Assembly: GCA_004374725.1 (NCBI GenBank)
Contig: SOKK01000095.1
Coordinates: 1-10,081, forward strand
Direction of reading: 5' to 3'
Origin: Patescibacteria group bacterium
GTDB lineage: Bacteria; Patescibacteriota; SOKK01
Length of the DNA: 10,081 nt
The translations under genes were made by a program, and so were the position numbers. The notes beneath the pieces are model-generated. The model was not told the origin of the DNA. It saw nothing but the letters and a program-made list of their open reading frames with translations, and did not search any database. Numbering within the stretch: position 1 is the stretch's first letter; the number at the start of each line of letters is the position of its first letter. Below, in pieces: positions 3,246 to 9,632 of this stretch.

Positions 3246-3247
3246 GA

Positions 3248-3282
3248 AGGAATAGGTTATAGGTGACAGGTGTCAGATGGGG
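3248..3282 (+). repeat. heptanucleotide repeat array A (five 7-bp units)
   Basis: Five consecutive 7-bp units can be read: AGGAATA, GGTTATA, GGTGACA, GGTGTCA, GATGGGG. The first four share the pattern G-G-T-N-A-N-A with drift. The array lies between the MFS terminator and the -35 box of rpoB. The third and fourth units create an inverted repeat TGACA-GG-TGTCA (3264-3275), which could be read as an operator but is also explained by the repeat. It belongs to the same family as the arrays at 5241-5329, 7148-7222 and 9598-9632. Unlike the two hairpin copies it has no matching inverted arm nearby. Confidence 0.6.
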
Positions 3283-3297
3283 CTTTTTACATATTTG

Positions 3298-3322
3298 AAA
3301 ACACCTTTAGATTAGGTGTTTT
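3298..3322 (-). terminator. terminator-like hairpin downstream of the MFS gene
   Basis: A perfect 9-bp inverted repeat AAAACACCT / AGGTGTTTT encloses a 7-nt loop and starts 18 bp past the MFS stop codon. The stem carries its own run of four U on either strand, but no longer U tract follows, so termination efficiency is uncertain. Its place between the MFS gene and the rpoB promoter fits an intrinsic terminator that separates the two units. Confidence 0.5.
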
Positions 3323-3339
3323 GATTTAGATGATGATTG

Positions 3340-4635
3340 TTACGGTTTCTCTTCTGCAAGTTCCTGGTAATGTTTCATCCGCTTAAACCCAAACGCAATT
3401 AACAAAATCCCCATGCAAACCAAAACCGTCGTCACTGAAAAGAGATCAGCAATAAAACCAGCCAAAATCATTGGAAAGAGAGCAATGAGGTTGTTGAGAG
3501 TGTTTAAGGAGCCAAAGGCGCGACCACGGACTCTGGCAGGGGCGTTTTCCTGAATCATTGTTTGAGCAGGGGTGACTACTAAAGAATTCATAAATCCTAA
3601 AGTTGCTGCCAGAATGGTAGTTGTTAGAAAAACATTGATTACCGCAATTAAGGGAATTTCATTAACACCCGAAAGAAGTGTGTATTTTATAAAGCGCCCC
3701 AGGTAGGGAAAGATTGAAAGCAGGATTAAAATTATTCCTCCTCCCAGCATTCCTCCAGTAATCAAGGAGTTCTTGGAAATCTTTTTTGCAAGGGGAGTAA
3801 TAATTAAAGCGCCGATCAACATTCCAATTGTAGCAGGACCAATAATGGCATAGCTCGAGGCCTTAACATCGATATGGAGCACTTTTGTTGTAAAAGCCGG
3901 GATCACTACAATTAAAACTGCAATCGCGGTGTAAGAAACACTGATGCTCAGAATTGGATAGAGCACCTCTTTCTTCTGACGAATAAAATCAATTCCTTCC
4001 TTAATACTTTTCTTCGCCTGGCCGACAATTTTAGAGTAGTTGATTTTTATTTGTTTTCTCTTATCAGAGGGGAGAAGGAAAACTGAGAAAGCAGCAAGTA
4101 AGAGAAGAATAAAGGCGAGAAAGAAAGGGAAGCGTGAGCCAAAGATTTGCATTAGGGGGCCTGCGAGGGTGAATCCTCCAGCATAAGCGCCGTAAATTGT
4201 GAACATAAAAAAAGAATTGGCTGTAAGCAAGTTCTTTTTTTTCACTAGAGAGGGAATCATTGATCCCTCGGCAGGAATGTAAAGTTGATTGATTGCATTA
4301 TAGGTGAAGGCAATGAGGCAGAGAACACCGGCGTAGTTGAAAGCGAAAAAGTAGAGAATAATTGTACCCGCCTGAGCAATAATAGAAAAGAGTAAGAGTT
4401 TGCGACGGTAAATACGGTCCACGATTGAACCCCCCATTATTCCAAAGAGAACATATGGAGCACCGATACAGAACAGAAGAAAACTTACAAAAATAGTAGT
4501 TTGAGTTAATTCAAAAACCCGCATGATTAACACAAAGTTAAGCATGTGGATTGAGACTTGGGAAAAGATCTGTGAACCCCACAACTTTAAGAAGTTAGTG
4601 TTGCGGAGCACTACAAGGTAAGAAACCTTGGGCAT
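3340..4635 (-). CDS. major facilitator superfamily permease (EntS/MFS_3-like exporter)
   Basis: A 431-residue polytopic membrane protein, probably with twelve transmembrane segments and a longer cytoplasmic loop (about 192-222, rich in Lys) between the two halves. After the first pair of helices it shows the MFS motif-A variant GGSIVDRIYRRK (about 68-79). In the second half it shows NAPARVRGRAFG (about 365-376), a pattern typical of the MFS_3 branch that includes the enterobactin exporter EntS and macrolide-efflux-like proteins. Such proteins are proton-driven exporters; the substrate cannot be told from sequence. The gene starts 22 bp after clpP ends and is probably cotranscribed with it, although it takes the place often held by clpX. 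No Shine-Dalgarno is seen before the ATG; MPKVSYLVVLRN is a plausible cytoplasmic N terminus leading into the first helix. The family call is firm and the specific role open. Confidence 0.88.
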   Translation of the reverse strand: MPKVSYLVVLRNTNFLKLWGSQIFSQVSIHMLNFVLIMRVFELTQTTIFVSFLLFCIGAPYVLFGIMGGSIVDRIYRRKLLLFSIIAQAGTIILYFFAFNYAGVLCLIAFTYNAINQLYIPAEGSMIPSLVKKKNLLTANSFFMFTIYGAYAGGFTLAGPLMQIFGSRFPFFLAFILLLLAAFSVFLLPSDKRKQIKINYSKIVGQAKKSIKEGIDFIRQKKEVLYPILSISVSYTAIAVLIVVIPAFTTKVLHIDVKASSYAIIGPATIGMLIGALIITPLAKKISKNSLITGGMLGGGIILILLSIFPYLGRFIKYTLLSGVNEIPLIAVINVFLTTTILAATLGFMNSLVVTPAQTMIQENAPARVRGRAFGSLNTLNNLIALFPMILAGFIADLFSVTTVLVCMGILLIAFGFKRMKHYQELAEEKP

Positions 4636-4657
4636 AGATTTAGTTTTGAGAAGATTC

Positions 4658-5233
4658 TTACTTCATTACCTTGTCAACAATCCCGTACTTCCTTGCTTCT
4701 TCGGGAGTCATAAACTTATCGCGCTCAACGTCTTTTTGAATTTGGCTTAAGGACTTTTTGGTATGTCTAGCGAGGATTTTATTAAGGCGCTCTTTGGTTC
4801 GCAGGATTTCATCAGCATGGATTTTAATGTCAGTTGCTTGCCCTGTGATTTCTCCAATTACCTGATGGATAAGGATGCGGGAGTTGGGGAGAGTGAAACG
4901 CTTGTTTTTAGCACCAGCGCTTAAGAGTATTGCTGCCATACTTGCAGCTTGGCCGACGCAAATTGTTTCAACTGGCGCTTTGATATGGTTCATTGTGTCG
5001 TAAATTGCAAGGCCATCTGTGACACTTCCGCCAGGGCTATTAATGTAGAATTTAATTTCTTTATTCTTATCCTTGCTTTCTAAAAAGAGCATCTGAGCAA
5101 TGACCGTATTAGCAACAGCGGTATTAATTGGTTCACTTAAAAAGATAATCCGTTCTTTTAAAAGACGAGAGTAAATATCATATGCGCGCTCGCCTCGGTG
5201 AGTTTTTTCAATGACAGTTGGAATCAATGTCAT
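4658..5233 (-). CDS. clpP: ATP-dependent Clp protease proteolytic subunit
   Basis: Serine peptidase of family S14 that assembles as a double heptamer and degrades proteins fed in by a Clp ATPase. The 191-residue length is normal. The start is supported by the typical N terminus [20 protein letters not shown], which corresponds to the mature family N terminus with almost no propeptide. The catalytic triad is visible as Ser98 (GQAASMAA), His123 (RILIHQ) and Asp172 (ERDKFM). The substrate-strand glycine motif [11 protein letters not shown] (64-74) is intact. After the catalytic histidine the common HQP is HQV, an uncommon but tolerable change. It follows tig by 90 bp, the familiar tig-clpP order, but no clpX follows within this window. 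No Shine-Dalgarno precedes the start; the 5' flank is an inverted heptad-repeat element that could fold in the mRNA if clpP is cotranscribed with tig. Confidence 0.97.
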
Positions 5234-5240
5234 ATTTGTA

Positions 5241-5329
5241 GGTTAAAGGTAATAGGTCAAAAGTAAGAGGTAAAAGGTTGTGATTACTACTACCCCTTAC
5301 CTTTAACCTTTACCCTTTGACCTCTAACC
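5241..5329. repeat. inverted heptanucleotide repeat element B (long imperfect hairpin)
   Basis: The left arm has five 7-bp units in strict register (GGTTAAA, GGTAATA, GGTCAAA, AGTAAGA, GGTAAAA, 5241-5275). The right arm carries five more on the opposite strand (5295-5329, read on minus as GGTTAGA, GGTCAAA, GGGTAAA, GGTTAAA, GGTAAGG). The arms oppose each other base for base with 25 of 35 positions paired, plus GGT/ACC at the top and a loop of about 13 nt. It fills the gap between tig and clpP and overlaps the end of tig: the TAG stop (5326-5324) lies inside the outermost right-arm unit. Because units differ within each arm but match in type, the arms look like two independently drifting arrays of one repeat family. 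Confidence 0.7.
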
Positions 5330-6634
5330 TAATTTACTGGCGTATTCAACCAGTTTGTCTATTGCTTTACGATTTCTTAGGGTAAGCTCAATTTGTTTTT
5401 TCTGACGATCAGAGTTGAATTGTTCTTTGAGTTTTTTAATCTCCTTTGGCTGAAACTGGGCAAATTGAAGAAGTTGTTTTTGAATCTCAGTATTGATTTC
5501 CTTTTCAGGTACAGTGATCTTTTCTTCTTTGGTAATTTGGGCAATCACAAGACCAGTTTTAATTCGTTTCTCTGCTTCTTTGTGCCACTCTTTCTTGAGC
5601 TCATCTTTGGTTTTATTGATCCGTTTGAGGTACTGATCAAAGTTTGACCCTTGCTGGATAAGTTTCGAGCTTACCTCCTTAATCATATTTTGTAGCTCTT
5701 CCTCAATTAGACCTGGAGCGATTTCAACTTTTGCTTGACTAACCACTGCATCAATTACTTTACTCTTGAAAGCAATTTCTTGTTCATCTCTTTTTTGTTT
5801 AGTAATGCTTTTTTGGATATCCTCTTTGAGCTTTTTTAGGTCGAATTGGGGGTTAACTTTTTTAGCGAGTTCATCATCTAGTTCGGGAAGTTTTACTGCA
5901 AAGACTTTGTTTAGTTTTACTTTGAATTTAACTTTTTGCCCCCTAAGGTGTTTAGCAGGATGATCTTTTGGGAAAGTTACTTCGAACTCTTTTTCTTCTT
6001 TAGGTTTCATTTTAATTAAATTGTCTTCAAAACCTTTCACAAGCATATTCTCTCCGATAACCAGGGGATGATTTTTGCTGGCTGCGTCTTCAAGGGGAAC
6101 ATTTTTGAGAAAGCCTTGGAAATCAATTTCAACTCGATCACCTTTTTTAACCGCTGTTTTTTTCTCGGTGTAAGTTGCGAGTTGCTTCTGAATTCTTTGC
6201 AAAACATTCTCGATTTCTTCTTTGCTTACTTCTATATTAGATTTTTCTGGCTTCTTAATTTTGATTGCTTTGTAGTTACCCAAGGAAACTTCAGGGAAGG
6301 TATTAACTTCAATTGTGTAACTAAAAGGATTTTTAGGAGCAAACTTAATAACCTGGATTTTGGGGCGGTCAATCGGAGTAATTTTTGCTTGTTCTAGGGC
6401 TTTGGGATAGGTGTTATCAAGGGTGACCTTAATAACTTCGGCATGGATTTTGTCAGTGCCGATTTTTGATTCGATTACTTTACGGGGAGCGTGCCCTGGC
6501 CTAAATCCCTCAAACTTTTCTCTTGAGTTGATTTGTTTAATTGCTTGGTCAAAGTATTTCTCAACTTCTGTGGCTGGAACTGTGACAGCGATTTTGGCTT
6601 TGTTGTTTTTCTGTTCGGTAATTTCAACTTGCAT
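5324..6634 (-). CDS. tig: trigger factor, ribosome-associated chaperone and prolyl isomerase
   Basis: Ribosome-bound chaperone that meets nascent chains at the exit tunnel. The 436 residues match the usual family length. The N-terminal ribosome-binding domain carries the signature GFRPGHAPRKVIE (43-55; family G-F-R-x-G-x-x-P). An FKBP-type peptidyl-prolyl isomerase domain follows at about 163-245 (KKGDRVEIDFQGF, then VIGENMLVKGFEDNLIKM). The remainder is the helical, Lys/Glu-rich C-terminal chaperone arm. Start MQVEITEQ is typical for the family; no Shine-Dalgarno is evident. The last codons, Leu-Gly-stop, are read from the start of heptad repeat element B, so the extreme C terminus has been shaped by the repeat. 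It lies 54 bp after the CBS-domain gene and 90 bp before clpP on the same strand, consistent with one transcription unit. Confidence 0.97.
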   Translation of the reverse strand: MQVEITEQKNNKAKIAVTVPATEVEKYFDQAIKQINSREKFEGFRPGHAPRKVIESKIGTDKIHAEVIKVTLDNTYPKALEQAKITPIDRPKIQVIKFAPKNPFSYTIEVNTFPEVSLGNYKAIKIKKPEKSNIEVSKEEIENVLQRIQKQLATYTEKKTAVKKGDRVEIDFQGFLKNVPLEDAASKNHPLVIGENMLVKGFEDNLIKMKPKEEKEFEVTFPKDHPAKHLRGQKVKFKVKLNKVFAVKLPELDDELAKKVNPQFDLKKLKEDIQKSITKQKRDEQEIAFKSKVIDAVVSQAKVEIAPGLIEEELQNMIKEVSSKLIQQGSNFDQYLKRINKTKDELKKEWHKEAEKRIKTGLVIAQITKEEKITVPEKEINTEIQKQLLQFAQFQPKEIKKLKEQFNSDRQKKQIELTLRNRKAIDKLVEYASKLG

Positions 6635-6638
6635 TATG

Positions 6639-6659
6639 GGGTTTAGGAAATAGGATAGT
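6639..6659 (+). repeat. degenerate trace of the heptanucleotide repeat
   Basis: Three 7-bp units GGGTTTA, GGAAATA and GGATAGT lie directly upstream of the tig start codon, each beginning GG with A/T-rich remainder. They resemble the units of the stronger arrays but are too few and too diverged to be sure. If real, every minus-strand gap larger than 50 bp here carries a copy. Confidence 0.25.
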
Positions 6660-6688
6660 TGCTAAAACGCACAGCTTTCGTCTCTCTA

Positions 6689-7141
6689 TTAATGGTTTTG
6701 TTCTGCAATCAGGGCAACAAGGTCAGAACGGCTTACAATTCCCACCGTTTTCTCGTTGTCCATCACGGGGATTGGATTAACATGTTTTTCATGCATAATA
6801 TTGGCGAGTTCCTCAACGGTAGAATCTAATTTAACCGTTGTAAAATCTTTAGTCATGATATCTTTTGCTTTGACAGCAAGGATTTTTTTGAGATCTTTTT
6901 CTACTTCCTTGGTGCTTTCAAGATAAAGGAAGCTATCTAGCAATTGGATGTAGGTTGGAAGGTGAAGATGCGCTTTTTTCATGATTAAGTCACCTTCGGT
7001 TACAATACCAACGATTTTTCCGTTTTCAACTACTGGGATCCCTGTTAAGTCATGTTTAATCATCAGCTTTGCAATTTCTTTAACCGTTGTTTCGGAAGTT
7101 ACGGTGATTACGTCTTTAGTTAAGATTTTAGAGATTTTCAT
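6689..7141 (-). CDS. stand-alone protein with two CBS domains
   Basis: A 150-residue soluble protein made of a tandem pair of CBS domains. The first, about 1-60, reads MKISKILTKDVITVTSETTV and later GIPVVENGKIVGIVTEGDLI. The second, about 92-147, contains AKDIMTKDFTTVKLDSTV and later NPIPVMDNEKTVGIVSRSDLV. Such pairs (Bateman modules) bind adenine nucleotides such as AMP, ATP or S-adenosylmethionine and usually act as sensors; a linker of about 30 residues joins them. There is no attached enzyme or channel domain, so the partner is unknown. It is the first gene of the probable CBS-tig-clpP-MFS unit and diverges from uvrC. Its predicted transcript starts near 7234 and carries the heptad hairpin just before the start codon, with no Shine-Dalgarno. 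Confidence 0.9.
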   Translation of the reverse strand: MKISKILTKDVITVTSETTVKEIAKLMIKHDLTGIPVVENGKIVGIVTEGDLIMKKAHLHLPTYIQLLDSFLYLESTKEVEKDLKKILAVKAKDIMTKDFTTVKLDSTVEELANIMHEKHVNPIPVMDNEKTVGIVSRSDLVALIAEQNH

Positions 7142-7147
7142 GAGTGA

Positions 7148-7222
7148 TGTTAAATGTTAAATGTCAAAAGTCAAAAGTGGTAGTTCGTGCTACATTTAAC
7201 ATTTGACATTTAACATTTAACA
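7148..7222. repeat. inverted heptanucleotide repeat element C (strong hairpin)
   Basis: The left arm has 7-bp units TGTTAAA, TGTTAAA, TGTCAAA, AGTCAAA (7148-7175), then AGTGGTA. The right arm on the plus strand has TTTAACA, TTTGACA, TTTAACA, TTTAACA (7195-7222). Arms 7149-7176 and 7194-7221 pair at 25 of 28 positions, the outer 14 bp without a mismatch. The top has a GTAG/CTAC stem (7180-7183 with 7190-7193) closing a 6-nt loop, after a 3-nt bulge. It lies wholly within the predicted 5' untranslated region of the CBS gene and ends about seven bases from its ATG. It is between divergent genes, so it is not a terminator for either. Confidence 0.8.
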
Positions 7223-7240
7223 TTAATTCCTGCACCCTGC

Positions 7241-7269
7241 ATTTTAGCATATCAGCTGGACTTTCTAAA
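7241..7269 (-). promoter_or_regulatory. promoter of the CBS-domain gene / tig unit
   Basis: On the minus strand a -35 of TTTAGA (7269-7264, four of six matches) is followed after 17 bp by TAAAAT (7246-7241, five of six). The -10 is preceded by TGC, giving an extended -10. Predicted start is near 7234, so the leader would be about 93 nt and would contain all of hairpin element C. Confidence 0.5.
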
Positions 7270-7279
7270 GGGTGCCCTG

Positions 7280-7288
7280 TGCTATAAT
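7280..7288 (+). promoter_or_regulatory. extended -10 promoter of uvrC
   Basis: TGCTATAAT is a perfect extended -10 (TGn plus TATAAT at 7283-7288). A -35 is poor: TGGACT (7257-7262) matches four of six but lies 20 bp away. Only nine bases separate the -10 from the uvrC ATG at 7298, which puts the expected start within a few bases of the start codon. The mRNA would then be nearly or fully leaderless, in line with the absence of a Shine-Dalgarno. Confidence 0.65.
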
Positions 7289-7297
7289 AAAATTGCA

Positions 7298-9070
7298 ATG
7301 GCTAGACAAAACCGAGCAAAAATTACAAAGTTGGCGAAACAGACAGAAGGATTGCCGAATAAACCAGGAGTCTACCTTTTTAAAGACCAAAAAGATAAAC
7401 CTATTTATGTTGGCAAGGCCAAAAATCTTAAAAAAAGAGTAAATTCTTATTTTAAAGCAGATCGGAACAGCAAAGCAAGAAGAATTCTAGCTAAGACTTC
7501 TAGTTTAGAATCTATTGTGGTCAGTTCTGAAGTTGAAGCATTGATTTTGGAATCAAATTTAGTTAAAAGATACCAGCCGAAGTACAATGTTGATCTTAAG
7601 GATGATAAAAATTTTCTTTATCTTCGGATCTCAGTTCAGGAAGATTTTCCAAGGGTGAATTTTGTAAGAAGGGTTGAGAAAGATAAAGCAAAATATTTTG
7701 GACCGTTTACAAATGCTAAAGAGATCAGGTCAACTCTAAAATTTGTTCGCAGAATATTTCCGTTTCGTACTTGCAGTTTGAAAATTAAAGAGGGGAAAAA
7801 ACAAAAACCTTGTTTAGATTTACATCTTGGGAAATGTATTGGACCTTGCTTGGATAATGTTGAAAAGAATGACTATCGTAAAATTATTAATGATTTAATT
7901 TTGTTTTTAGAAGGGAAACAGAATGGGATTATTGATAGATTGAAAGATCAGATGGAGAAAGCGGTGAAATCAAAAGACTTTGAAAAGGCAGCTAAATTAC
8001 GTGATCAATTAAGGGGATTCAAGCAATTGACGATAAGACAAAAAGTTATTTCAACAAATTTCGTTGATCAGGATTTGATTGGTCTGAGAATTGGCAATAA
8101 AGTTGCAGTGGTTAATCTTTTTATGATCCGTTCCGGCAAATTGACTGGTTGTGAATATTTTACTTTAAAGAACGTTAATAGGTCTTCAAGAGGTGAAGTT
8201 TTAAGTTCTTTTATTCAAAATTATTATCAAAAAGTAGCGGATTTCCCCAAGGAAGTTATTTTAGATTTAGCACCAGATCAATTAGAAATTTTATCAGCTT
8301 GGTTAAATAAAATTTCTGATCATAGAATAAAAATCATTATTTCTAAAAAGGGTAATAAGAAGAAATTATTAAAGTTAGCGAATGAGAATGCGGAATTATA
8401 TTTAAATCAAATTGTTCGGCTCGGGGATTCACGCCTTGTTATAGAAAAGGCTTTGAAAGAATTATTGAAAGTCATTCAGCATCCGAAACTTCTAGCGCCT
8501 AAAAAATTTGATCTTAATAAAGCCAAGCGCTTTCGGATTGAGGGTTATGATATTTCCAATCTTCAAGGAAAAGATGCTTATGGTTCAATGGTGGTCTTGG
8601 AATTTTTTAAGAAAGAAGTAGAGAACAAAGATAAAGGAACGCGAGAAAAAAAGTGGCTTCTTAGATTGGCGAAAGATCAGTACCGCATTTTTCGCGTTAG
8701 AACAGTTACTAAACCGAATGATTACCGAATGTTTGGAGAGGTTCTTTCACGTCGTCTTGGCAATCGTAAAAAACATTCTGATGATGAGTCTTTTAGAACC
8801 TTGCCTGATTTAATTTTAATTGATGGAGGAAAAGGACAATTAAATGCTGCTTTGAAAGTATTAAAAAGTCTAGACCTTACGATCCCTGCGATTAGCTTAG
8901 CTAAAAAAGATGAGGTTATTTTCACCCCGCTTAATAAAGATGGAATCAAATTAGAAGAACGTAGTCAGGTTTTAAAAATTATTCAAAAGATTCGGGATGA
9001 GTCTCATCGTTTCAGTTTAAAATTTCATCGTAATTTGCGAAGCAAAAGTATTAGAAGAGGAGCAAGATGA
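7298..9070 (+). CDS. uvrC: excinuclease ABC subunit C, lacking the C-terminal helix-hairpin-helix pair
   Basis: Dual-incision nuclease of nucleotide excision repair, recruited by UvrB to damaged DNA. The N-terminal GIY-YIG nuclease (about 16-98) shows GVYLF (24-28), IYVGKAKNLKKRV (36-48, Arg47) and the catalytic-type Glu85 in ALILESNLVK. Four cysteines C159, C172, C180 and C184 match the spaced set reported to bind an iron-sulphur cluster in UvrC. A UVR helix pair (about 219-241, MEKAVKSKDFEKAAKLRD) contacts UvrB. The RNase H-like 5' nuclease has Asp418 (EGYDIS), Asp509 (ILIDGGKGQ) and His570 (DESHRF). The protein ends at FHRNLRSKSIRRGAR just after this domain, so the usual (HhH)2 DNA-binding tail is absent. 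Length is still 590 because of extra residues within the nuclease domain (about 437-460, 488-502). The stop overlaps the queH start by ATGA. Confidence 0.96.
   Translation: MARQNRAKITKLAKQTEGLPNKPGVYLFKDQKDKPIYVGKAKNLKKRVNSYFKADRNSKARRILAKTSSLESIVVSSEVEALILESNLVKRYQPKYNVDLKDDKNFLYLRISVQEDFPRVNFVRRVEKDKAKYFGPFTNAKEIRSTLKFVRRIFPFRTCSLKIKEGKKQKPCLDLHLGKCIGPCLDNVEKNDYRKIINDLILFLEGKQNGIIDRLKDQMEKAVKSKDFEKAAKLRDQLRGFKQLTIRQKVISTNFVDQDLIGLRIGNKVAVVNLFMIRSGKLTGCEYFTLKNVNRSSRGEVLSSFIQNYYQKVADFPKEVILDLAPDQLEILSAWLNKISDHRIKIIISKKGNKKKLLKLANENAELYLNQIVRLGDSRLVIEKALKELLKVIQHPKLLAPKKFDLNKAKRFRIEGYDISNLQGKDAYGSMVVLEFFKKEVENKDKGTREKKWLLRLAKDQYRIFRVRTVTKPNDYRMFGEVLSRRLGNRKKHSDDESFRTLPDLILIDGGKGQLNAALKVLKSLDLTIPAISLAKKDEVIFTPLNKDGIKLEERSQVLKIIQKIRDESHRFSLKFHRNLRSKSIRRGAR
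9053..9062 (+). promoter_or_regulatory. ribosome binding site of queH inside uvrC
   Basis: The purine run AGAAGAGGAG at the 3' end of uvrC includes AGGAG (9058-9062), 4 bp before the queH ATG at 9067. It supports this start and translational coupling through the ATGA overlap. Confidence 0.6.
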
Positions 9071-9609
9071 AACCCAAGCTACTTCTACATGTCTGTTGTG
9101 CACCTTGTGCCGGCCACCTATTAAAAGAGCTCCAAAAAGAATTTGATCTCACAGCCTACTTTTATAATCCCAACCTGGATAGCAAAGAGGAACATCAGAA
9201 AAGATTAGTTGAAGCAGAGAAATATTGTAAAAAACTAGGAATTGATTTAGTTAAGGGTGACTATAATCATAAAGAGTGGCTTGAAATGGTAAAAGGTTTT
9301 GAGAACGAGCCAGAGGGCGGGAAAAGATGTCTGAAATGTTTTGAAATGCGGCTTGGGGAAATAGCAAAATTTGGAAAAGAAAATAACTTCGATTGTTTTT
9401 CTACTACTCTAACAATCAGTCCTTATAAGAGTACAAAAGTAATCGGTCCGATTGGTAGAGAAGTGGCTAGAAAGTTTGAAGTGAAGTTTTTAGACAAGGA
9501 TTTCGGGAAGAGAGATAGATTTAAGAAAAGTCTAGAGATATGTAAAGAAGAAGGGTTTTACCGTCAGGATTATTGCGGGTGTGAGTTTAGTAGGGCAGGT
9601 AATAGGTGA
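9067..9609 (+). CDS. queH: epoxyqueuosine reductase QueH
   Basis: Reduces epoxyqueuosine to queuosine in tRNA, the last step of queuosine synthesis; QueH (DUF208) is the alternative to the cobalamin enzyme QueG. The N terminus LLLHVCCAPCAGH carries C10, C11 and C14. Further family cysteines are C88 and C91 (KRCLKCFEMRL), and C170 and C172 (YCGCEFS), which supply the iron-sulphur and metal ligands. TTLTISPYKS (113-122) and DFGKRDRF (145-152) are also typical. The start overlaps uvrC by ATGA and is supported by an AGGAG. The family normally ends soon after CGC-x-x-S; the last residues here, AGNR and the TGA stop, are encoded by heptad array D. No other queuosine gene is in the window, so the precursor pathway or base salvage must be elsewhere. 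Confidence 0.95.
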   Translation: MKPKLLLHVCCAPCAGHLLKELQKEFDLTAYFYNPNLDSKEEHQKRLVEAEKYCKKLGIDLVKGDYNHKEWLEMVKGFENEPEGGKRCLKCFEMRLGEIAKFGKENNFDCFSTTLTISPYKSTKVIGPIGREVARKFEVKFLDKDFGKRDRFKKSLEICKEEGFYRQDYCGCEFSRAGNR

Positions 9610-9632
9610 TGGGTGGTAGGGAATAGGTAAAA
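9598..9632 (+). repeat. heptanucleotide repeat array D (five units, overlaps the end of queH)
   Basis: Five consecutive 7-bp units GGTAATA, GGTGATG, GGTGGTA, GGGAATA, GGTAAAA are in perfect register and all begin GG. The queH stop TGA (9607-9609) is inside the second unit, so the array supplies the last codons and the stop. There is no opposing arm downstream. Orientation and unit type match the left arms of elements A and B. Confidence 0.65.

Follow-up and report, generated by a model that had tools for sequence, protein, structure and literature searches.

Degenerate 7-bp intergenic repeats in a Patescibacteria genome, and a recurrent G-inward polarity of their hairpins

The stretch of DNA analyzed here (the window) is the entire 10,081-base contig SOKK01000095.1, from the 488 kb, 78% complete assembly GCA_004374725.1 of a Patescibacteria group bacterium, a genome that we label G000 (other G-numbers denote further genomes compared with it, and L-numbers denote loci). 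Pfam matches place genes for a major facilitator superfamily protein, trigger factor (tig), a CBS-domain protein, QueH, and a LiaF-like protein in the window, and genes for RpoB, ClpP, and UvrC were putatively assigned by reading the translations of open reading frames (ORFs); this gene content and the small genome size also point to Patescibacteria. Our subject is the set of arrays of 7-bp tandem repeats lying in the gaps between these genes, which we show to be local copies of a genome-wide, degenerate 7-bp family within the widespread class of prokaryotic heptanucleotide repeats.

A sequence-only reading of the window had reported five stretches with period 7, four of which exceed their dinucleotide shuffles. 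The first is a plus-strand, single-arm array at 3247–3274, AAGGAATAGGTTATAGGTGACAGGT and onward, which has no inverted partner in our pair scan and fits the family pattern at 3 mismatches; over 3248–3282, its lag-7 identity is 0.64, a value reached by 1 of 2000 shuffles. Between tig and clpP, the stretch 5241–5329 (lag-7 identity 0.61, with 0 or 1 of 2000 shuffles as high) is part of a hairpin at 5240–5330 (DNA folding z –2.8). Its 5′ arm, (AGGTNAD)n at 5240–5281 on the plus strand, lies 6 bp upstream of the start of clpP, which is encoded on the minus strand, and its 3′ arm, (HTNACCT)n at 5296–5330 on the minus strand, ends the tig reading frame, in mRNA sense, by providing its final GGT codon and its TAG stop. 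A second hairpin, at 7147–7223 (DNA folding z –8.0, RNA folding z about –10 on either strand), lies between the divergent CBS-domain gene and uvrC, with a lag-7 identity of 0.75 over 7148–7222 (0 or 1 of 2000 shuffles as high). The plus-strand 5′ arm of this hairpin (7147–7178, 5 bp upstream of the CBS gene start) is composed of ATGT/AAGT-NAA units, such that the core changes within a single array, and the minus-strand 3′ arm (7192–7224), recognized by the lag-7 test and by folding, is composed of ACAT-TTA/TTG units. The fourth array is again a plus-strand single arm, AGGTAATAGGTGATGGGTGGTAGGGAATAGGTAAA at 9597–9631 (lag-7 identity 0.68 over 9598–9632, reached by 0 of 2000 shuffles), and encodes the three C-terminal residues of QueH (GNR) together with the TGA stop; the QueH Pfam match stops at residue 176 of 180, ahead of this array-encoded end. 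Arrays thus overrun the ends of upstream genes at both tig and queH, and both single arms are non-folding (DNA folding z 0.07 and 0.33). The fifth stretch, a claimed trace at 6639–6659, reaches p 0.03 at lag 7 but fails correction over lags 3–12 (p 0.21), and cannot be distinguished from chance. Taken together, the five gaps of more than 50 bp in the window contain 3 segments at the strict score; a relaxed score raises this to 5, where shuffles give 0.006.

Beyond the window, we drew on a first sample of G000 contigs, ten of which were picked for AGGT matches, and on 25 arbitrary contigs (167,296 bases) that exclude both those ten and the window, with contigs reading all N set aside ahead of counting. 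In the 25 contigs, a scan for period 7, which the sequence-only reading had proposed as a check, returns 39 arrays, while the remaining periods between 4 and 13 return 0 to 2 each (the double period, 14, returns 13). The proposed comparison with shuffled spacers likewise leaves the family standing, with 26 gap arrays observed compared to a mean of 0.01, and a maximum of 1, over 200 dinucleotide-shuffle runs. A dispersed family kept in register had also been claimed, and the pattern AGGTNATAGGTNATAGGTNATAGGT indeed has 40 overlapping matches in the genome at up to 3 mismatches, while its reversed control has 0. The statement that arrays occupy nearly every gap is, however, true of the window only, as in the arbitrary contigs 87 gaps measure 40 bp or more and 18 of them carry an array at the strict score. 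Coding interiors, described as free of arrays, are mostly so: 6 of 57 arrays in an earlier sample lie more than half within a simply called ORF, though this sample is 90% coding and 10% intergenic. An inverted partner is found at most 110 bp away for 36 of these 57 arrays, compared to 4.8% of random sites. Both marks of the heptanucleotide class, an excess of exact 7-nt tandem units and a mainly intergenic location, are therefore present in G000.

The loose unit (G/T/A)GT(N)A(A/T)A that had been proposed is better written as AGGT-N-A-D, the dominant form (97 units in 25 arrays, with two of seven positions nearly free), with related cores ATGT, AAGT, AGTT, TAAT, AGAA, and ATGG also present in the genome. 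Since these arrays were picked by their AGGT match, a fair contrast is limited to the last three positions. Of these, position 6 is A in 99% of the 97 units, whereas position 5 (A16 C22 G24 T38) and position 7 (A48 G27 T23 C2) vary, the latter being free apart from a scarcity of C. The triplet is the same in adjacent units at a frequency of 0.29, compared to 0.10 for non-adjacent units and 0.11 for random family members, which supports the slippage suggested by the sequence-only reading.

When two arms form a hairpin in G000, the strand running 5′ to 3′ inward is as a rule the G-rich one. Among AGGT-type hairpins of the first sample (one core mismatch allowed), the AGGT arm comes first in 14 of 14, and the whole-genome pattern gives 16 AGGT-first matches (overlapping matches counted) and 0 ACCT-first. 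In the larger sample, hairpins found without any core motif behave alike, the inward strand having more G than C in 26 of 28 and less in 2, and pairs of similar hairpins have the same polarity in 87 cases and opposite polarity in 0. Of 379 genomes searched in the phylum, 3 (G000, G171, and G361) have AGGT-first hairpins and 0 have ACCT-first hairpins. The polarity extends to virus contigs with several cores: in IMG/VR stretches, AGGT-first hairpins prevail by 23 to 1, AAGT-first by 22 to 1, and GTTG-first by 23 to 2, and for a core balanced in G and C, AGTC-first prevails over GACT-first by 20 to 3. Some hairpins of the AGTC/GACT set overlap the AAGT set; their inward strand has more G than C in 18, less in 3, and equal amounts in 4, and the 4 GACT-first hairpins of the set have the G-rich strand inward too. 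Taking all cores together and leaving out hairpins already counted under another core, 105 non-redundant IMG/VR hairpins have G inward in 95, C inward in 7, and equality in 3, a count that for three of the four cores is the core order itself.

Outside the viral data, 49 named genomes with AGGT arrays include 10 with AGGT-first hairpins (41 matches, overlaps counted) and 0 with ACCT-first hairpins. These ten are Oscillochloris, Desulfobacteraceae, Elusimicrobia, Yanofskybacteria, and six of Bacteroidota kind. The 49 include 14 cyanobacteria, all of which lack AGGT-first hairpins. This test took 50 of 80 listed loci, those left out being repeats of one genome and others chosen by hand, and one of the latter group of omissions, L104, has ACCT units downstream of its AGGT array. 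The control columns of the Oscillochloris genome show TGGA-first 12 times and TCCA-first 0 times. Plain hairpins, which served as a control, show no comparable excess of G-inward over C-inward cases, with 26 to 27 in G000, 24 to 34 in the relative G027, 120 to 99 in the viral loci, 68 to 76 in the named loci, and 58 to 104 in other stretches from the candidate phyla radiation (CPR). By the same method, heptamer hairpins give 7 to 0 in G000, 53 to 10 in the viral loci (which were fetched for their heptamer hairpins), and 8 to 2 in the named loci. A G-inward polarity that recurs across different cores, lineages, and virus contigs looks new, while being weak or mixed in several relatives, as detailed below.

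The two arms of a hairpin share their units without sharing the order of these units. In the viral hairpins, the arms draw on a small common set of triplets, with a letter identity of 0.57–0.63 when aligned from their outer ends (0.50–0.63 from their inner ends), compared to 0.27–0.35 when arms are swapped between hairpins. For 59 of the 73 distinct viral hairpins (14 with fewer than three triplets per arm, or with a single triplet, were excluded), the outer-aligned identity is 0.602, compared to 0.594 ± 0.012 after permuting the order within arms, and the corresponding values for 16 G000 hairpins are 0.565 and 0.542 ± 0.019. Alignment from the loop gives 0.556 for the viral arms, below the permuted 0.589 ± 0.013, and the best register over all shifts gives 0.681 compared to 0.682 permuted for the viral hairpins, and 0.653 compared to 0.654 for G000. 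Template switching had been put forward as a source of the inverted arms; such fold-back copying predicts a mirrored order, which is absent unless it was erased by later scrambling, and on this ground we do not support it as the direct source of the hairpins. The initial observation is, overall, partly confirmed, and its interpretation partly supported. In 14 G000 hairpins, identity at position N is 0.32 within and 0.27 between hairpins, and at position D 0.48 and 0.32, respectively, and we take the vocabulary of the arms in G000 to be largely a property of the genome. We also observed that the 58-kb viral contig IMGVR_UViG_3300031812_000004 (L306, L307, and L308) bears AAGT arrays, with one arm of 17 triplets (7 kinds) and one of 22 (6 kinds) at L307 and L308, and that the listed AGGT hairpins in the genome of L148 (G416, Bacteroidales) have nearly the units of G000 (TAA, TAG, GAG, AAA, and GAT).

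The 58 relatives drawn for comparison belong without exception to the phylum of G000, with genome sizes of 0.6–1.4 Mb in 56 cases, and those used in the array survey were partly picked by pattern matches. For twenty relatives taken without selection, 17 of them readable, the first contigs contain 5 arrays at period 7, including one plain TA-rich run, and 0 to 3 at other periods from 4 to 13; the arrays are patchy in the phylum, and several other genomes are rich in them. The congeners G005 and G027, 84% identical in the protein compared, have 11 and 45 arrays, respectively, per compared 40-kb stretch. A GTAT hairpin of about 75 bp recurs in G027, with 12 long and 9 partial copies, related in their loops, over 320 kb, and these hairpins (L232, L235–L238, L242, L246, and L248; e.g., L236 5970–6075) are joined in modular fashion to a further heptamer family. 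In the same genome, the 23S rRNA gene (L233 17498–20000 and L232 1–1645) measures 4,148 bp, compared to 3,068 bp in G005, and contains seven inserts of 64–374 bp that sum to 1,067 bp; among lags 5–10, the top identity is at lag 7 in 6 of the 7, a value that carries no shuffle control. Judged by eye, at least five of these inserts are heptamer stems, and the 374-base insert resembles a group I intron with a heptamer hairpin. No 23S rRNA match was obtained within the 78% complete assembly of G000.

The reading that we favor, tentatively and with rather less than even confidence, is that 3′ DNA ends are extended strand-specifically, 7 nt at a time, and are then joined, any enzyme involved being putative. 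At each step, a G-rich 3′ end would re-anneal via the 4-nt core (AGGT, AAGT, ATGT, and so on), and the other positions of the unit would presumably be filled with little constraint. If both ends of a break or gap were extended and then joined, an inverted pair would result in which each side has its G strand inward and the arms are ordered independently of each other, while extension of a single end would leave a single arm; polarity, independent order, shared vocabulary, and single arms would then follow from one process. Arrays would persist in gaps as insertions within genes are purged, an array that enters a gene end would carry its own stop codon, and some hairpins might later be copied as cassettes, as in G027. 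The agent could be either an ordinary polymerase slipping over the core or a dedicated enzyme. That one polarity accompanies different cores in unrelated records is hard to derive from a single ancestral hairpin, though horizontal spread may have played a part. It is decidedly doubtful, if conceivable, that bacteria of many phyla and their viruses extend 3′ ends with degenerate 7-nt repeats in the manner of telomeres, through an activity dedicated to this task that would align on a 4-nt core and specify the other bases loosely; the G-inward hairpins would then be scars of joined ends, and heptanucleotide repeats the footprints of an end-healing system.

Several observations weigh against growth and joining of 3′ ends. 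By the method of the plain-hairpin control, heptamer hairpins give only 2 to 1 in G027 and 3 to 5 in the other CPR stretches, and polarity scored without a motif is weaker in G027 (21 to 11) and G019 (9 to 4). The small samples from G021 (0 to 2), G011 (1 to 2), G032 (3 to 2), G057 (0 to 1), and G005 (1 to 1) sum to 5 to 8, family-wise polarity in G027 is the same in 135 pairs and opposite in 46–49, and at least five of the seven G027 23S rRNA inserts start, by eye, with the C-rich arm CAAC. The fixed 4-nt core is clear at the family level but weak within single arrays, where conservation of neighboring phases gives 39 compared to 45.0 ± 3.7 in G000, 157 compared to 165.6 ± 6.0 in G027, and 14 compared to 21.4 ± 2.4 in G019; the null here is event-based, replacing a too lenient one, as a single substitution makes two lag mismatches. 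Similar copies at several loci require a copying process beside end growth, and no empty site was seen for the G000 arrays among the relatives compared, all of the same phylum and none of them close; a trigger-factor scan aimed at gaps orthologous to those of the window returned nothing. Finally, the reverse transcriptase domain RVT_1 (PF00078) was not found in the array-bearing genomes G005, G019, G027, and G057, nor in G000 (0 matches, where incompleteness or divergent reverse transcriptases may play a part). It occurs in 5 of 22 genomes, of which four (G032, G050, G011, and G021) bear arrays.

Purely neutral repeat dynamics, in which polymerase slippage builds an array, fold-back or template switching adds the inverted arm, and further slippage and conversion scramble the order while keeping the vocabulary, are possible, if on the doubtful side. 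They would account for the greater likeness of adjacent than of distant units, for a vocabulary common to both arms, and for the mixed polarity of several relatives; the unequal array numbers of G005 and G027 imply a fast turnover, which also fits. The GTAT elements of G027, by eye, seem to combine loop orientation and arm type freely, as inversion between arms would give. Neutral dynamics alone, however, produce no G-inward polarity such as that of the IMG/VR and G000 hairpins, and the mirrored order from which they would start has left no trace in the 59 viral or 16 G000 hairpins; moreover, substitutions should strike all seven positions, yet position 6 is nearly invariant while positions 5 and 7 vary. 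Mobile palindromes of the kind of repetitive extragenic palindromic (REP) sequences or miniature inverted-repeat transposable elements, moved as cassettes by a transposase in trans and varied later by slippage, seem unlikely to us. The multicopy GTAT hairpins of G027 are what such elements would leave, as are the G000 hairpins at separate loci that are about 80–87% alike over 54–75 bp and the 30-base array found identical at two loci, and Y1 transposase genes are present in six array-bearing genomes (G005, G019, G027, G032, G050, and G011). Against this, Y1_Tnp (PF01797) gives 0 matches in the 78% complete G000 and none in the array-bearing G021 and G057, while it does match in four genomes that show no period-7 array in the stretches sampled (G001, G017, G018, and G022). 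The loops of the G000 AGGT hairpins are, by eye, unlike one another, single arms occur, and one polarity recurs across unrelated records whose cores differ. An element acting in trans, which the sequence-only reading also suggested, may be involved in view of the dispersed heptamer hairpins of G027, but neither a Y1 transposase nor a reverse transcriptase was retained as a carrier, with no match to either in G000.

Selection of the arrays as regulatory or structural elements (terminators, 5′ untranslated region structures, stop cassettes, or protein-binding sites) we regard as very unlikely, despite their placement: the distance from the hairpin end to a simply called start codon is 1 to 12 bp in 19 of 28 cases, several hairpins overlap upstream stops, and they fold well as RNA. 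Genes preceded by arrays are, in addition, nearly devoid of Shine–Dalgarno-like motifs at –14 to –9, with 2 matches in 31 genes (one gene may give several). Among array-free genes, the 111 behind gaps of 40 bp or more give 50 matches, and the 73 behind shorter gaps give 16. Selection on a transcript, however, predicts a sense-strand preference that is absent: in 20 hairpins, mismatches in the transcribed sense are G–U in 20 and A–C in 31 cases, and the sense strand folds no better than the antisense strand (–25.6 and –27.0, respectively). Selection on the stem at the mRNA level was rejected on this ground. Arrays occur alike in tandem (35), divergent (5), and convergent (3) gaps, with 8 at a contig edge; congeners vary in array number and gap length; and an Rfam scan of the window gave no match. 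The sequence TANNNT, 5–7 nt before starts, shows no genome-wide peak and is seen where the array itself provides it, and the idea of a leaderless promoter was dropped. The closeness to starts may instead reflect tolerated insertion into very short gaps.

Short tandemly repeated repetitive (STRR) sequences proper occur in mostly filamentous cyanobacteria, a host group to which G000 does not belong. The sequence-only reading was apt in pointing to cyanobacterial heptanucleotide repeats, and the class is wider, with AGGTNNN arrays in many phyla. Heptanucleotide repeats are already known from many bacteria, with convergent pairs in Xanthomonas (PMC4679880, PMC4692102, PMC2700814; excerpts of these and the following papers form the basis of our comparisons), and their origin is unsettled. 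A polarity that holds over cores, phyla, and virus contigs, together with shared but unordered units, constrains any account of this origin, and polarity and arm order jointly separate end growth from fold-back copying. In an open-literature search, outside which subscription papers mostly fall, none of the titles and abstract openings among the matches listed names an AGGT-N-A-D family in CPR or a general polarity rule. The AGGT-N-A-D unit, the G-inward polarity, and the shared vocabulary without shared order thus look like new points.

The excerpt of PMC4692102 describes GGGAATC heptamers of Xanthomonas with 70 and 75 close pairs "with convergent orientation" and GGGGA(T/C)T heptamers of Nostoc with few paired repeats; these resemble the G000 arrays as intergenic tandem 7-nt units, the Xanthomonas pairs also having the G strand inward, but differ in having three or four Gs, in forming G-quadruplexes, and in being less degenerate. 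Heptamer motifs TDNGATT and NNTGAGT are reported from the Nostoc tRNA-Leu intron, in its P6b stem, with one class replaced by the other in several lineages (PMC4476775). These are likewise 7-nt, stem-forming units with two degenerate positions, and the 23S inserts of G027 recall them, but they lie within a structured RNA, are cyanobacterial, and have other sequences. The heptanucleotide sites of Geobacter metallireducens (consensus MTYCTGA), proposed to bind a global regulator (IHF/HU), are multicopy and mostly paired, drawn as loops, with five degenerate tandem heptamers in 15 of 16 aligned sites, and differ from the G000 unit in sequence (PMC2700814). TAACTGA repeats, for which one exact unit was searched, occur in Beggiatoaceae, Cyanobacteria, and Bacteroidetes; they too are intergenic heptamers across phyla, most of those in one genome lying just upstream of starts, but are direct repeats, with a single indirect repeat reported in the excerpt (PMC4679880). 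REP sequences and REPINs share with the G000 hairpins their nature as dispersed intergenic palindromes (PMC12306157). They are unlike them in the associated Y1 (RAYT) transposase, which G000 lacks among its matches, and as to their tetranucleotide tag, no constant flank was seen by eye in 28 G000 hairpins, where no motif search was made. For a fixed core plus a filled segment in each unit, a model is offered by DRT10, a telomerase-like bacterial reverse transcriptase that makes tandem-repeat DNA by re-annealing over a 4-base segment (preprint PMC12632851). It differs in its protein-primed cDNA, in a unit of 9 nt in the main example, and in a templated, constant filled segment, whereas that of G000 varies between units; no RVT_1 gene, as DRT10 would entail, was found in G000.

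Two further kinds of repeat were seen in G000. A second dispersed repeat, ACGGGATTGCTTCGTCGCC...CTCGCAATGACA, occurs at L040 4260–4318 and L054 2753–2811, the copies being 97% alike over 59 bases. Palindromes of another type, perfect or near-perfect and 24–30 bp long, lie at L044 397–426 and 950–977, L061 6802–6825 and 7099–7126, and L057 5333–5358.

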